Positions 19,454 to 64,000 of a DNA stretch of 64,000 bases are shown in pieces. A model generated the notes under the pieces. It had not been told where the DNA came from. It did not search any database and saw only the letters and a program-made list of their open reading frames with translations. The position numbers were made by a program, and so were the translations under genes. The DNA is from Pseudodesulfovibrio indicus (GTDB taxonomy: Bacteria > Desulfobacterota > Desulfovibrionia > Desulfovibrionales > Desulfovibrionaceae). How positions within the stretch are numbered: position 1 is the stretch's first letter; the number at the start of each line of letters is the position of its first letter. Where the stretch lies: NCBI RefSeq assembly GCF_001563225.1, contig NZ_CP014206.1:930001-994000 (forward strand), in the 5' to 3' direction.

Positions 19454-20257
19454 ATGTTTGCCGACAAGGAAACCTGCAAGCGCTGCGGCGCCTGTTTGGA
19501 CGAGTGTCCTTTCGACCTGATCGTGACCGACGCGGAGGGGTTCCCCAAGCTCCGCCCGGCCGCGAAAAAGACCTGCATCAACTGCGGCCATTGCGTGGCC
19601 GTCTGTCCGGTGGGGGCCGTGACCCTGCCGCCCATGCCCGTGACCGACGGGCTGGGCCCGGACCAGTGCGCGCCCCTGTCCCGCGACCTCCGGCTGACCC
19701 CGGAACAGGCCGACCAGTTCCTGAGCGGGCGGCGGTCCACCCGCACCTACCGCGACAAGGTGGTCCCCGAAGCGGTCCTGAACCACCTCTTCGCCGTGTC
19801 CTCGTTCGCGCCCAGCGCCAAGAACGGCCAGCCCGCGCGCTGGATCGTCACCCGCACCCCCCAGGCCACCCGGCGGCTGGCGGGCATGACCGTGGAGTAC
19901 ATGGCCACCAACTCCATCTTCCCCGGCGTGGTCAAGAACTGGGAGAAGGGGCTGGACAAGATCCTGCACGGCGCGCCCCACGTGGCCGTGGCTCACGCCC
20001 CGGAGGACGGCTTCAACCCGGCCGAGGACTGCGCCCTGTCCGCCGCCTATCTCGAACTCGCGGCCCACGCCCACGGCCTGGGCGCCTGCTGGGCGGGCTT
20101 CCTCATGGAGGTGGCCGAAGGGTGCTGCGCCATCCGAAGGGAACTCGGCATTCCCGAGGGCCACGGAGTCTATGCGGCGCTCATGCTGGGATACCCCAAA
20201 TACCGGTACCAACGGATACCCACGCGGAGTGTCGTCGAAGTCTCTTGGCTCGATTAG
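19454..20257 (+). CDS. Ferredoxin-nitroreductase fusion protein
   Basis: 267 residues. The N-terminus holds two 4Fe-4S motifs, CKRCGACLDECP (residues 9-20) and CINCGHCVAVCP (about 40-51). The remainder is an FMN-dependent nitroreductase domain beginning RRSTRTYRDKVVPE and containing SAKNGQPARWIV and the C-terminal GVYAALMLGYPKYRYQR. Such fusions occur in anaerobes and couple ferredoxin-type electrons to flavin reduction of unknown substrates. A good GGAGCAG site precedes the ATG. A palindromic P element begins two bases after the stop codon and may act as its terminator. Confidence 0.88.
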   Translation: MFADKETCKRCGACLDECPFDLIVTDAEGFPKLRPAAKKTCINCGHCVAVCPVGAVTLPPMPVTDGLGPDQCAPLSRDLRLTPEQADQFLSGRRSTRTYRDKVVPEAVLNHLFAVSSFAPSAKNGQPARWIVTRTPQATRRLAGMTVEYMATNSIFPGVVKNWEKGLDKILHGAPHVAVAHAPEDGFNPAEDCALSAAYLELAAHAHGLGACWAGFLMEVAEGCCAIRRELGIPEGHGVYAALMLGYPKYRYQRIPTRSVVEVSWLD

Positions 20258-20258
20258 C

Positions 20259-20377
20259 GGCTTTCGATAGCGGCGCATCTGCACATTTTTCCCGGGGGCT
20301 TCCATCCTCACGTAGACGGCTACGCTGCGGTGGAAGCCCCCGGAAGAAAATGCACAGCTGCACCACTCTCGAAAGCC
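20259..20377. repeat. Palindromic element P, copy 1 (119 bp)
   Basis: Outer inverted ends GGCTTTCGA / TCGAAAGCC enclose a long inner hairpin: CTGCACATTTTTC, arm GGGGGCTTCCA, centre ATCCTCACGTA with TACGCTGCGGT, arm TGGAAGCCCCC, then GAAAATGCACAG. Copies 2 (20584, inverted) and 3 (29165) share the outer, near-arm and centre blocks. The inner arms differ in sequence but stay complementary. Confidence 0.85.
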
Positions 20378-20480
20378 TATCCCTAGTACGGGGGCCTTCG
20401 GTCGGTGAGGCGGCTGGTTGACCCGCTGTTCGGGGCTGGAGCCCCGAAGGCGTTAGCCTGGGTTGAATGGGAATATTTTT

Positions 20481-20525: not shown

Positions 20526-20571
20526 CGGAGCGATTCGGGCGGCGCAGCCACCCGACAGCGGCTCTCTAGCC
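20526..20571. repeat. Repeat module Q, copy 1
   Basis: GGAGCGATTCGGG, GGCGCAGCC, ACCCGACAGCGGCTCTC. The copy at 40127-40167 has GGAGCGATTCGGA, GGAGCAGCC, ATCCGACAGCGGCTCTC. The change in one arm is matched in the other, so the small hairpin is kept. It lies just before P copy 2. Confidence 0.65.
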
Positions 20572-20583
20572 GTGCGCGGAATA

Positions 20584-20704
20584 GGCTTTCGAGAGTGGGT
20601 CAGGCGTGCATTTTTCGAGGGGGGATTTGACCGCAGCGTACACCCGGTACGTGAGGATCAAATCCCCCCTCGAAAAATGTGCGAATGGCCCGCTCCCGGA
20701 AGCC
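20584..20704. repeat. Palindromic element P, copy 2 (121 bp, inverted)
   Basis: Reverse orientation to copies 1 and 3. Ends GGCTTTCGAGAG and CTCCCGGAAGCC; inner arms TCGAGGGGGGATTTGA and TCAAATCCCCCCTCGA, almost perfectly paired; centre CCGCAGCGTA and TACGTGAGGAT as in the other copies. Confidence 0.85.
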
Positions 20705-20713
20705 GCTCCCCAT

Positions 20714-20765: not shown

Positions 20766-21260
20766 CTAGATGTCGAGGAGTGCCGCCTTGATGTTCTTGC
20801 TGCCGAACTGTCTGGCTTCGGACTCGTCCCACATGAAGATGTCGATGCGCTGGGTGAAGCGCTTGTTCATGAGGTCGTTGATCTCGAAGATGCCCAGGCC
20901 CTCGATGCGGACCTTGCGGCCGAAGACCCAGCCCTGGTCGAACAGATCGCGGGAAACCGCGATGGTGCCGGAGCGGACCTTGCGCATGGAGGCGGCGATG
21001 AGCGGATCGTCGTCGCACTGGTCGGTGGTGGGGTTGTAGGCGGTCACGGTGACCGTGCGCACAGGGGACATGTTCATGGCTTTCTGAAGGAGGCGGGCCT
21101 CCTCCACGAGGACCTTGCGCGCCTCGGCGGTCTTTTGCACCAGCTCCAGGCGGTGCGACAGGTCGTCGATCTTCTGCTGCTTGACGACCACAACCACAGC
21201 CATGATCACCAGGGCCGCACAGAGCACCGGCGTGACGGTGTAGTTGAACAATATCTTCAT
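20766..21260 (-). CDS. 3D-domain protein with N-terminal membrane anchor
   Basis: 164 residues. An N-terminal helix (about 9-27, TPVLCAALVIMAVVVVV) and a helical linker precede a 3D (Asp-Asp-Asp) double-psi beta-barrel domain: TVTAYNPTTDQCDDDPLIAA, GTIAVSRDLFDQGWVFGRKV and IDIFMWDESEARQFG. The family is related to the C-terminal domain of MltA and to YuiC/RpfB-type cell-wall proteins. Catalytic aspartates are plausible, but lytic activity is inferred. A well-formed promoter lies directly upstream and a terminator directly downstream, so the gene is transcribed alone. Confidence 0.8.
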   Translation of the reverse strand: MKILFNYTVTPVLCAALVIMAVVVVVKQQKIDDLSHRLELVQKTAEARKVLVEEARLLQKAMNMSPVRTVTVTAYNPTTDQCDDDPLIAASMRKVRSGTIAVSRDLFDQGWVFGRKVRIEGLGIFEINDLMNKRFTQRIDIFMWDESEARQFGSKNIKAALLDI

Positions 21261-28953: not shown

Positions 28954-29052
28954 GGGCTGCGCCCCGGCTTTTATTGAAGAGAGTCTTTGCGGGTGAGCGC
29001 ATTTTAGGGAGGAGGGAGAGCCGTCGCTGTCGCTCCTCCATGTTTTTTTGGA

Positions 29053-29527
29053 GCCCTCCCGGCGGGGTTCTTTCTTTTCAGGGAGAAAGAAAGAACGAAA
29101 GAAACGCCCTGGGGGGGCACCCCCGCCCGAAGTTTCGCCGCTGAGAATCCGATCCGCTCGGTGCGGCTTCGCATAGCGGGCCATCTGCACATTTTTCAAG
29201 GGGGAATTTGATCCTCACGTAGTATTGCTACGCTGCGGTCAAATCCCCCCTCGAAAAATGCACAGCCGCCCCACTCTGCGAAGCCTTCCGGCTCCATCTG
29301 ATCAAAAGTATAGGGACAGTCTCCACGGGAACGCCCCTTTTATGGAACACCTCCGGGTCACGGGAGCGGAGCCGCCGCCCCTTCGCGGTCGGCTTCTAGG
29401 CGTCCGGAACAGGGCTCACTGCGTGCTGCTTGACGGGACGAAGGGCGAAGGAAGAGGGGCCTTTGTAAGGCATGGCGGGGTATGAAAGCCGCTGTTTGGG
29501 GCTGACGCCCCAAAGGTGCTCCAGGGG
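29053..29527 (+). repeat. Mosaic repeat R, copy 1, carrying an inserted P element
   Basis: Modules in order: GCCCTCCCGGCGGGG; a hairpin GTTCTTTCTTT/AAAGAAAGAAC; CGCCCTGGGGGG; GAATCCGATCCGCTCGG; P copy 3 (29165-29285); CCGGCTCCATCTGATCAAAA; AGCGGAGCCGCCGCCCCTTC; GAAGAGGGGCCTT; GCTGTTTGGGGC/GCCCCAAA. Copies 2 (39678) and 3 (47044, reverse) share these blocks without P. No reading frame is conserved between copies. The remainder of 28954-29712 holds no gene. Confidence 0.85.
29165..29285. repeat. Palindromic element P, copy 3 (121 bp), inserted in repeat R copy 1
   Basis: Ends GGCTTCGCA and TGCGAAGCC pair perfectly; inner arms ATTTTTCAAGGGGGAATTTGA-like and their complement surround TCCTCACGTAG / CTACGCTGCGG. 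The flanks GCTCGGT and CCGGCTCC are contiguous in the other two R copies. Confidence 0.88.
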
Positions 29528-39677: not shown

Positions 39678-40099
39678 GCCCTCCCGGCGGGGTTCTTTCT
39701 TTTCAGGGCGAAAGAAAGAACCAAAGAACGCCCTGGGGGGGGACCACCGCCCGAGTTTGGACACCAAGAATCCGATCCGCTCGGGACGGCTCCATCCGAT
39801 CAAAAGTATAGTTCGTGCCTCCACGGGAACGTCCCTTTTAAGGGATGCCTCCGGGCCACGGGAGCGGAGCCGCCGCCCCTTCGCGGTCGGCTTCTAGGCG
39901 TCCGGAACAGGGCTCGCTCCGTGCTGCCTGACGAAACTGCGTGCGAAGGAAGAGGGGCCTTCGTAAGGCTTGGCGGGGTATGAAAGCCGCTGTTTGGGGC
40001 TGCGCCCCAAAGACGCCCCAGAAGAGGAACGTTGGGCGGGCCTTGGGTGCGGGAGAGCCACTGTTTGAGGCTGCGCCTCAAAGGCGTTCCAGGGGAGGG
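39678..40099 (+). repeat. Mosaic repeat R, copy 2 (no P element)
   Basis: Same module order as copy 1 at 29053, but the junction reads GATCCGCTCGGGACGGCTCC (39774-39793) with nothing inserted. The region from AGCGGAGCCGCCGCCCCTTC to GAAGAGGGGCCTTCGTAAGG is nearly identical to copy 1. A second, diverged tail module follows (ACTGTTTGAGGC/GCGCCTCAAA). The rest of 39543-40273 holds only repeat fragments. Confidence 0.85.
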
Positions 40100-40126
40100 C
40101 GGGCACGGAGTACGTTTTGGCCCCCA

Positions 40127-40243
40127 TGGAGCGATTCGGATGGAGCAGCCATCCGACAGCGGCTCTCGCCCTCGCGCTGGCACGAGGCTTTGATCACCCC
40201 TTTGGGGCGTTGCGGAAAGACCGCAACGTCCAAATCCGCTGTC
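40127..40243. repeat. Repeat module Q, copy 2, within a larger inverted repeat
   Basis: Starts GGAGCGATTCGGATGG and continues GCAGCCATCCGACAGCGG. GACAGCGG (40155-40162) pairs with CCGCTGTC (40236-40243), enclosing a separate hairpin GTTGCGG-AAAGA-CCGCAAC. It ends next to GAAAGCCGCTTCCCG, similar to the edge of P copy 2. Confidence 0.6.
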
Positions 40244-47043: not shown

Positions 47044-47290
47044 GCCCTCCCCTGGAACGCCTTTGAGGCGCAGCCTCAAACAGTGACTTTCATACCCTGC
47101 CAAGCCTTGCGAAGGCCCTGATTTCTTCTTTCGCCGTCCCGTCAATCCGCACTCTACTTTTGATCAGATGGAGCCGGACCGAGCTGATCGGATTCTCGGC
47201 GGCCAAACTCGGGCGGTGGGCTACCCCCCAGGGCGTTTTCTTTGGTTCTTTCTTTTGGCCCAACAAAAGTAAGAACCCCGCCGGGAGGGC
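47044..47290 (-). repeat. Mosaic repeat R, copy 3 (reverse orientation, no P element)
   Basis: Read on the minus strand it has GCCCTCCCGGCGGGG, a hairpin of changed sequence (GTTCTTACTTTTG/CAAAAGAAAGAAC), GCCCTGGGGGGTAGCCCACC, GATCAGCTCGGTCCGGCTCC at the empty junction (47170-47189 on the plus strand), CATCTGATCAAAAGTA and the tail GTTTGAGGC/GCCTCAAA. The middle block of copies 1 and 2 is absent. The rest of 47002-47405 holds no gene. Confidence 0.8.
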
Positions 47291-62887: not shown

Positions 62888-64000
62888 ATGAACATCGGTC
62901 AGTACACCTTTGAAGAGTTCAAGCAGAAGGCCAAGGAATTTCACGGGTATCCCGCTCCGGGATTGCTCATCGGCGGATACATGGTGGAAGCGGCCAAGGC
63001 CCGGTTGCCCGAAGGCACCCTGTTCGAGGCCATGGTCGAGTCCGGCAAGTGTCTGCCCGACGCGGTCCAGCTCCTGACCCTCTGCTCCACGGGCAACAAC
63101 TGGATGAAGGTCAAGCTGCTGGGCCGGTACGCCGTGTCCCTGTACGACAAGTTCACGGGTGTTGGCGTGCGCGTGGCCATTGATCGGAAGAAGCTCGACA
63201 AGTGGCCGGAGATCCGGGGCTGGTTCATGAAGGAGAAGCCCAAGGCGGAACAGGACACCGACAAGCTGTTCGCCGAGATCGAGGAGGCGGGGGACACCAT
63301 CTGCTCCATCCGGCCCGTGACCATTTCCAAGAAATACCTGGGCCACGGCCACATGACCACCATCGACGTCTGTCCGGTCTGTGGCGAGGCGTATCCCGGC
63401 TCGGACGGCTCCATCTGCCGCGGCTGCCAGGGCGAGGACCCCTACGTGGCCATGGAGAACGTGGCCTGCGCCGACGACGCCCCCGACGGGCCGGAACTTC
63501 GGGTGGTCCCGGTGGAGCAGGCCGTGGGCAAGCAGGTCGTCCACGACATGACCGGCATCGAGCCGGGCGAATCCAAGGGCCCCATCGCCCGCGCCGGCGA
63601 CGTCCTGGACGTGGGCGACGTCTGCCGGTTGCAGCGCATCGGCAAGTTCAACGTCTTTGACGGCGAGGCCCTGCCGGGCGACGAGTGGGTGCACGAGAAC
63701 GACGCGGTCAAGGCGTTCGCCAAGCGCATGGCCGGGCCGGGCATCACCTACGACCCGAACCCGGAAGAGGGCAAGATCAACTTCTTCGCCGAGTATCCCG
63801 GCATGCTGTCCATCGACCTGGACGCCCTGACCCGGTTCAACCTGTCCCCGGACGTCATGCTCGCCACCCGCCACGACGGGTCCGTCATGCCCGAGGGCAA
63901 GGGCGTGGCCGGCACCCGCGCCATCCCACTGTACATCTCCCGCGACCGGTTCAGCCGCGCCCTGACCGCCCTTGGCGAAGGGCCTGTGCTGTCCGTCCTG
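62888..64000 (+). CDS. FmdE-family protein fused to a molybdopterin-binding-like domain (cut by window end)
   Basis: The frame is open to the end of the window. It begins MNIGQYTFEEFKQKAKEFHG, GYPAPGLLIGGYMVEAAKAR, and keeps FmdE blocks (CLPDAVQLLTLCSTGNNWMK, KLLGRYAVSLYDKFTGVGVR). Four cysteines in CPVCGEAYPGSDGSICRGC suit a zinc finger. After about residue 210 a second part starts with EQAVGKQVVHDMTGIEPGES and RAGDVLDVGDVCRLQRIGKF, resembling MoeA/molybdopterin-binding proteins. The name FmdE refers to formylmethanofuran dehydrogenase operons, but a methanogenic function need not apply. GAGGCAAAC lies before the ATG. Confidence 0.82.
   Translation, partial: MNIGQYTFEEFKQKAKEFHGYPAPGLLIGGYMVEAAKARLPEGTLFEAMVESGKCLPDAVQLLTLCSTGNNWMKVKLLGRYAVSLYDKFTGVGVRVAIDRKKLDKWPEIRGWFMKEKPKAEQDTDKLFAEIEEAGDTICSIRPVTISKKYLGHGHMTTIDVCPVCGEAYPGSDGSICRGCQGEDPYVAMENVACADDAPDGPELRVVPVEQAVGKQVVHDMTGIEPGESKGPIARAGDVLDVGDVCRLQRIGKFNVFDGEALPGDEWVHENDAVKAFAKRMAGPGITYDPNPEEGKINFFAEYPGMLSIDLDALTRFNLSPDVMLATRHDGSVMPEGKGVAGTRAIPLYISRDRFSRALTALGEGPVLSVL

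Follow-up and report, generated by a model that had tools for sequence, protein, structure and literature searches.

The window, by which we mean the whole stretch of 64,000 nucleotides analysed here, comprises bases 930001-994000 of the Pseudodesulfovibrio indicus genome (G000), a single contig of 3.97 Mb. It harbors copies of three repeats, a gene-less hairpin element (P), a larger repeat (R), one copy of which is split by P, and a short hairpin (Q), which are located as follows:

19454-20257, gene with Nitroreductase and 4Fe-4S domains (Pfam), co-oriented with the P copy behind it
20257-20378, plus strand: P, overlapping the TAG stop codon of gene 19454-20257 by its final G
20420-20455, plus strand: Q-like hairpin downstream of this P, read from the sequence
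20527-20566, minus strand: Q hairpin (GAGAGCCGCTGT...CGCTCC) downstream of the following P
20583-20706, minus strand: P, about 60 bp past the stop of gene 20766-21260, with a terminator-like hairpin between gene and P
20766-21260, minus strand: gene
29016-29524, plus strand: R copy 1, split by P and bounded on the left by a Q-like hairpin and on the right by Q
29163-29286, plus strand: P inside R copy 1, placed by genome search and an alignment of 29 copies
29483-29524: Q, right end of R copy 1
39678 to about 40018-40100, plus strand: R copy 2, with the empty site CTCGGGACGGCTCC
40127-40167: Q
47052-47290, minus strand: R copy 3, internally shortened, with the TC-type empty site CTCGGTCCGGCTCC

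The original prediction had described a palindromic element of 121 bp at 29165-29285. The element itself stands, whereas its bounds had to be revised: the alignment of 29 family members gives 124 bp (GCGGCTT...AAGCCT), and these ends are consistent with the empty R sites. The lone copy expected at 20259 and its inverted counterpart at 20584 were recovered at 20257-20378 and 20583-20706, and P is indeed a discrete unit without a gene, with ends defined by the family. Direct reading also confirmed the three R copies announced at 29053 (+), 39678 (+) and 47044 (-), the third lying at about 47290-47052 and the first extending left of 29053 to a Q-like hairpin (GAGAGCCG...) near 29016. Their junctions are those given before, namely CTCGGGACGGCTCC in copy 2, CTCGGTCCGGCTCC in copy 3 and CTCGGT-P-TCCGGCTCC in copy 1. 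Relative to the TC-type empty site of copy 3, P and one T make up a net insertion of 125 bp, and this one-base T repeat is the sole possible duplication at the junction.

Folded as DNA, the strand of P reaches -36.2 kcal/mol in comparison with -16.6 +/- 3.0 kcal/mol for shuffled sequences, which, together with its occurrence at 35 distinct places in the genome, argues against a chance structure. A scan for intrinsic terminators did not call P as a whole, and detected a 5-pair stem of the left arm before ATTTTT in two of the three window copies. No Rfam family matched the window above its gathering score, nor did any match the R locus L034; at five loci with P or R only sub-gathering matches were returned, mostly to microRNA models, and these seem to be due to the chance similarity of long hairpins.

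The 35 distinct places were obtained by blastn with the window copy (40 rows, five being opposite-strand repeats), and the copies outside R share 73-86% identity with it. A covariance model built from 29 full copies returned 72 genome rows, many of them the same place on the other strand, and places P at a minimum of 40 sites in G000 (150 of 1095 candidates scored, one 43-base partial match left out), five inside R and 35 outside. P is found essentially only in Pseudodesulfovibrio: among 60 genomes searched with stricter filters it occurs in 30 of the 36 from this genus, G000 among them (24 at E < 1e-10, six weaker), and in two of the 24 others, both weakly (8e-7 and 1e-6). One exact P pattern matched three stretches in GTDB contigs, on two contigs of a Pseudodesulfovibrio MAG and in a Desulfovibrionaceae MAG. 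In the literature searches made, no title on this repeat family was found, and the available portions of PMC3733652, PMC12306157, PMC10969869 and PMC2267715 contain neither 'Desulfovibrio' nor 'Desulfo'.

Six copies in G000 (L022, L025, L026, L027, L029, L031) are enlarged by one to three conserved modules, which vary in combination and each have a fixed place: one of about 55 nt lies in the 3' arm (all but L027), one of about 57 nt beside the loop (L029, L031) and one of about 80 nt ahead of the final AAAGCCT (all but L025). The longest form in G000 measures 313 nt. The third module also starts the downstream flanks of L181, L187, L191 and L200 in G002 and G013. Reduced forms were recognised by eye; the second P of the window pair has apparently collapsed to a short remnant in G013, and in G028 the gene is followed only by an AAGCCT tail and a remnant of Q.

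The stem of P covaries. Compensatory changes occur in 21 of the 43 stem pairs (27 distinct rows), the covariation score is 0.292 versus 0.100 in shuffles (none of 500 as high), and 95.9% of the pairing cells are paired as opposed to 84.6% after shuffling and 36-48% with slid partners. Each arm consists of a conserved outer part and a variable yet paired inner stem, and the loop region, ATCCTCACGTA...TACGCTGCGGT, is again conserved. The strand reading with the upstream gene, here termed the sense strand, contains conserved C.A and T.C mismatches; because the C.A mismatches become G.U on the opposite strand, the antisense strand folds better, in all 29 copies (27 distinct) and with means of -85.3 versus -67.1 kcal/mol as RNA and -47.7 versus -36.4 kcal/mol as DNA. 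Counted over the antisense fold of 112 distinct copies, drawn from several genomes, the paired positions comprise 634 antisense G.U cells against 62 on the sense strand. Six near-fixed columns, all A.C in the sense and hence G.U in the antisense strand, supply 494 of the 634. The asymmetry is carried mostly by these columns, and related copies are not independent; without the six columns the same lean persists, with 140 versus 61 cells and 25 versus 14 columns (p=0.11 for columns).

Placement was studied with 70 copies, comprising 30 from G000 outside R and the 20 best-scoring each from G002 and G013, relative to genes called with a simple GC3 caller. For 66 copies an upstream gene was called, and 57 of these copies are co-oriented with it, lying a median of 16 bp behind the stop (51 of 57 within 100 bp, 33 within 30 bp). 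The median distance to the downstream gene is 266 bp for all 70, and in 46 of them this gene faces P. Copies about 60-90 bp from the stop are, as judged by eye, often preceded by a T-tailed hairpin. Convergent gene pairs can hold two copies, one per gene, as in the window (20257/20583) and at L017. Of 119 copies, 79 have Q (GAGAGCCGCTGT...CGCTCCA) no more than 90 nt downstream, or 86 with a looser motif, and one or two have it upstream. As a repeat in its own right, Q is a short REP-like hairpin that is found by itself, behind P and, as related forms, at either end of R; its strict pattern is present at 21 genome places and its reversed control at none.

The distribution of P also follows replication to a degree. 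With the origin taken as the better of two DnaA_C matches, 29 of the 40 places in G000 (p=0.006) and 26 of the 34 listed for G002 (p=0.003) lie in the origin-proximal half, and 30 of 40 (p=0.002) and 23 of the 34 listed (p=0.06), respectively, point with the fork; among 35 gene-following copies of both genomes, 26 do so and nine point against it. As the main cause of the orientation, replication direction was rejected because the genes of a convergent pair can each have a P pointing along its own gene, as in the window pair and at L017. Since the orientation of P also agrees with replication direction, replication may contribute to part of the bias.

Such regular placement raises the question of whether P is a selected functional element of gene 3' ends, serving RNA processing, a block of antisense transcription or ribosome stalling, with the mRNA or antisense read-through from a convergent neighbour as the acting RNA. 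Roles at the transcript level have been reported for REPs near stop codons and for ERIC in Yersinia (PMC12306157 and PMC2229807). The short distance to the stop in the 57 co-oriented copies, the frequently facing downstream gene, the strong covariation of the stem and the sites common to G000, G002, G013 and G028 would all suit such a role. Against it, close relatives can lack P behind the same gene. Following gene 19454-20257, G000, G002 and G013 have P, whereas G007 and G010 lack it although their proteins are equally close (87-88% identity). At a second locus (A), G002 and G013 have P and none exists in the 480 bases past the gene in G028, G000, G010 and G007; at a third (B), G013 and G028 have it and none exists in 420 bases in G002, G000, G010 and G007. 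P present after a gene in one species and lacking in another is thus dispensable, and its sites are gained or lost. Orthologs were read by eye at 30 loci, with L115, L117 (which ends 82 bases past the gene) and L135 set aside and L112 taken from other searches. Furthermore, some copies lie past a terminator-like hairpin (by eye) and so outside the main transcript, the well-folding strand is not that of the mRNA, and the 40 places counted (150 of 1095 candidates scored) are few for a 3.97-Mb genome. Altogether, we consider a selected 3'-end function unlikely. Past the locus B gene, L227-L232 show, by eye, a further repeat-like stretch, GCGAAGCGGC..AAAAAGTTTGGAAGGGGAGTCC...GCCGCCGGAGGCATT, in several genomes.

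Comparison of orthologous sites points to exchange between copies. For 21 orthologous pairs matched by their upstream flank, the odd copies L032 and L025 counted, the mean identity is 0.866 as compared with 0.805-0.808 for non-orthologous copies. In six of the 21 pairs no copy of the other genome matches better than the ortholog, and in five the ortholog ranks ninth or lower of 20; in four of these five the entire inner stem is different (L155/L166, L018/L141 and L032 twice, L032/L153 among them). In G013, copy L221 unites the left arm of one type with the right arm of another, joined at the conserved central loop. The outer arms of 112 copies fall into two matched types in 95 cases and other combinations in 15, and are outright opposite in two (CG|AC and GC|CA).

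As originally proposed, a unit of this kind would need an enzyme acting in trans. Consistent with the earlier statement that the window lacks a transposase, none appeared among the Pfam matches of 52 of its 53 called genes (nine of the 52 without a family; the 101-aa ORF 63442-63747 left out). Target-site duplication beyond about one base was not found in permutation tests of 108 of the 119 copies. The longest word shared by the flanks averages 5.04 versus 4.95 bases in permuted data (321 of 2000 as high), and a suffix test likewise gave no excess (408 of 2000). Two tests lean positive and so allow a duplication of about one base: that of prefixes (26 of 2000) and that of exact offsets, at one offset out of nine (9 of 1000; 0.42 versus 0.28 bases). 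Flanking repeats resembling GCGCGGGGG exist at L144 and L163, and flanks of different copies match as well.

These results bear on two classes of movers. P might be a classical MITE of an insertion sequence with a DDE transposase, as its terminal inverted repeats (GGCTT...AAGCC), its multiple copies and the one-base repeat at the R junction could suggest. A duplication of ordinary length is missing from the flanks, however, and P has a single prevailing orientation and an interior paired throughout, both atypical of MITEs, which makes this origin highly doubtful. Slightly less probable still is a REP/RAYT system, in which a Y1 HUH transposase moves P. A single-strand hairpin, placement at gene ends and a near-absent target duplication would match REPs, and the P-rich G013, G018, G019 and G022 have one to six Y1 matches, some of them fragments. 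Yet PF01797 (Y1_Tnp), the one transposase family searched genome-wide, has no match in G000, with five of 14 control genomes positive, and its occurrence in 17 of the 36 genus genomes does not follow that of P: G002, G006, G020 and G028 are P-rich without it, G012, G014, G031 and G032 have it without P, and G009 and G015 have neither. P is also at least three times as long as a REP. The RAYT suggested as mover is thus not borne out, which leaves a lost or unknown enzyme. As to possible carriers, one query each revealed no match of a stretch with the long P among phages or of a stretch with R and P among plasmids, and in viral contigs neither an exact pattern of P nor one of R had a match.

Intergenic DNA outside R is too divergent between species for the reading of junctions, and R is the only place where an insertion can be read at both. 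We aligned 36 copies of R, consisting of 30 loci, the third window copy and five filled copies (40 of 78 candidates scored). R without P and P without R were both looked for and found, as 31 of the 36 aligned R copies are empty and 35 of the 40 P places lie outside R, and within R of this genome the bounds of P agree with the empty-site junctions. The empty sites read GG in 24 copies (one a variant), GA in three, TC in three and GT in one. All five filled copies have P at one same base and read CTCGGT-P-TCCGGC, and four of them contain TTTCACCGCCAAG. On the 5' side, TTTC is present in five of five filled and none of 31 empty copies, all of which have TTTG. The other four P copies in R are 95-97% identical to that of the window.

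From the same base, the high identity and the shared TTTC it follows that the five filled copies are probably not five insertions. The original idea that P moved as a unit into R is thus partly supported: P is a discrete unit, whereas separate moves into the filled copies are not supported. In a tree of whole R the filled copies are ungrouped, the smallest clade with all of them having 27 of the 36 copies, which fits conversion but would also fit several insertions at a hot site. R itself seems to be a mosaic, as variable segments are apparently shuffled between its copies. Judged from these alignments, one insertion followed by spread between R copies fits best, and insertion with subsequent conversion explains the filled copies with the least assumption. 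Five separate entries at one hot site, for which the tree and the likeness of the commonest empty site, GGGGCGGCTCC, to the left end of P might speak, are very improbable in view of the shared base and TTTC flank and of 95-97% identity where copies elsewhere reach 73-86%. A single insertion spread by exchange can thus mimic repeated transposition in a pair of filled and empty sites.

R is an uncharacterised repeat of the genus, with matches in 24 of 36 genomes, many of them only short blocks. In G010, R is arranged in tandem arrays of about 360-380 bp that contain two highly conserved blocks, and L239, L240 and L241 are further R loci. Its copies cluster near dnaA, with 37 of 40 main matches origin-proximal and quartiles of 25/12/3/0 (40 of 78 candidates scored).

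Taken together, we favor the following reading, with a probability of roughly 0.6: P is a gene-less, non-autonomous repeat of the ERIC/REP sort, dispersed through a single strand to the 3' ends of genes, which entered R by one insertion and was then distributed by recombination. Formerly, P would have spread as a unit of 124 bp, by means of an enzyme handling the folded single strand antisense to the upstream gene, and would have settled directly 3' of genes in a single orientation. The strand asymmetry of P would suit an enzyme acting on a single strand, and the near absence of target duplication fits single-strand transposition. At present, P would change mainly by inheritance, by internal deletion or insertion and by exchange between copies. 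In R, one old insertion into a TC-type copy may have been followed by the transfer of the P-bearing segment to four more copies through recombination between R elements, with conversion tracts carrying P together with its flank.

A more specific version of this dispersal is put forward tentatively and is rather unlikely as a whole: the near-perfect antisense hairpin with its six conserved G.U pairs could be recognised by an unknown enzyme of a type other than Y1, which would insert P in an oriented manner behind stop codons or terminators with little or no duplication. If true, such strand-specific reading would define a new class of gene-end-targeted elements. With 36 genomes of the genus, presence and absence at given sites, covariation and an orientation rule, P renders both the choice of gene ends and the use of one strand testable.

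Repeats of the ERIC and REP kind are best described in enterobacteria and pseudomonads. According to PMC2229807 and PMC10969869, ERIC is a long intergenic hairpin of 127 bp with tens of copies, whose effect on the upstream transcript depends on its orientation; shortened forms of 69-127 bp are described for Y. pestis (PMC2267715), and Table 1 of PMC2229807 lists TA termini with a target-site duplication. P resembles ERIC/IRU/RU-1 of Enterobacteriaceae and Vibrionaceae in length (124 versus 127 bp), long hairpin, intergenic position, multiple copies and the existence of shortened forms, which are listed for ERIC. It differs from ERIC, compared here by description, in its ends, in having neither TA termini nor a TA duplication, and in usually lying behind a gene in that gene's orientation. 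REPs measure 20-40 bp and lie near the 3' ends of genes, in spaces separating convergent or unidirectional genes (PMC3733652). P shares with REP/BIME/REPIN the position near gene 3' ends, and is often followed by the REP-like Q, whereas its length of 124 bp and a host genome without a Y1 transposase set it apart from REP/RAYT.

A further parallel is the attC site of integrons, which folds on one strand, keeps its structure while the sequence varies and stands directly after an ORF, bounded by the boxes GTTRRRY/RYYYAAC. P has the one-strand fold, the conserved structure and the place after an ORF in common with attC, whereas these boxes are absent from its ends in the 29-copy alignment and P is dispersed and mostly single instead of forming cassette arrays. 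Since P lacks tested defining features of ERIC (TA ends, duplication) and of REP (Y1, size), it is filed as a new family of the same broad kind that is neither ERIC nor REP, and its most unusual points are the orientation rule and the one-strand fold.
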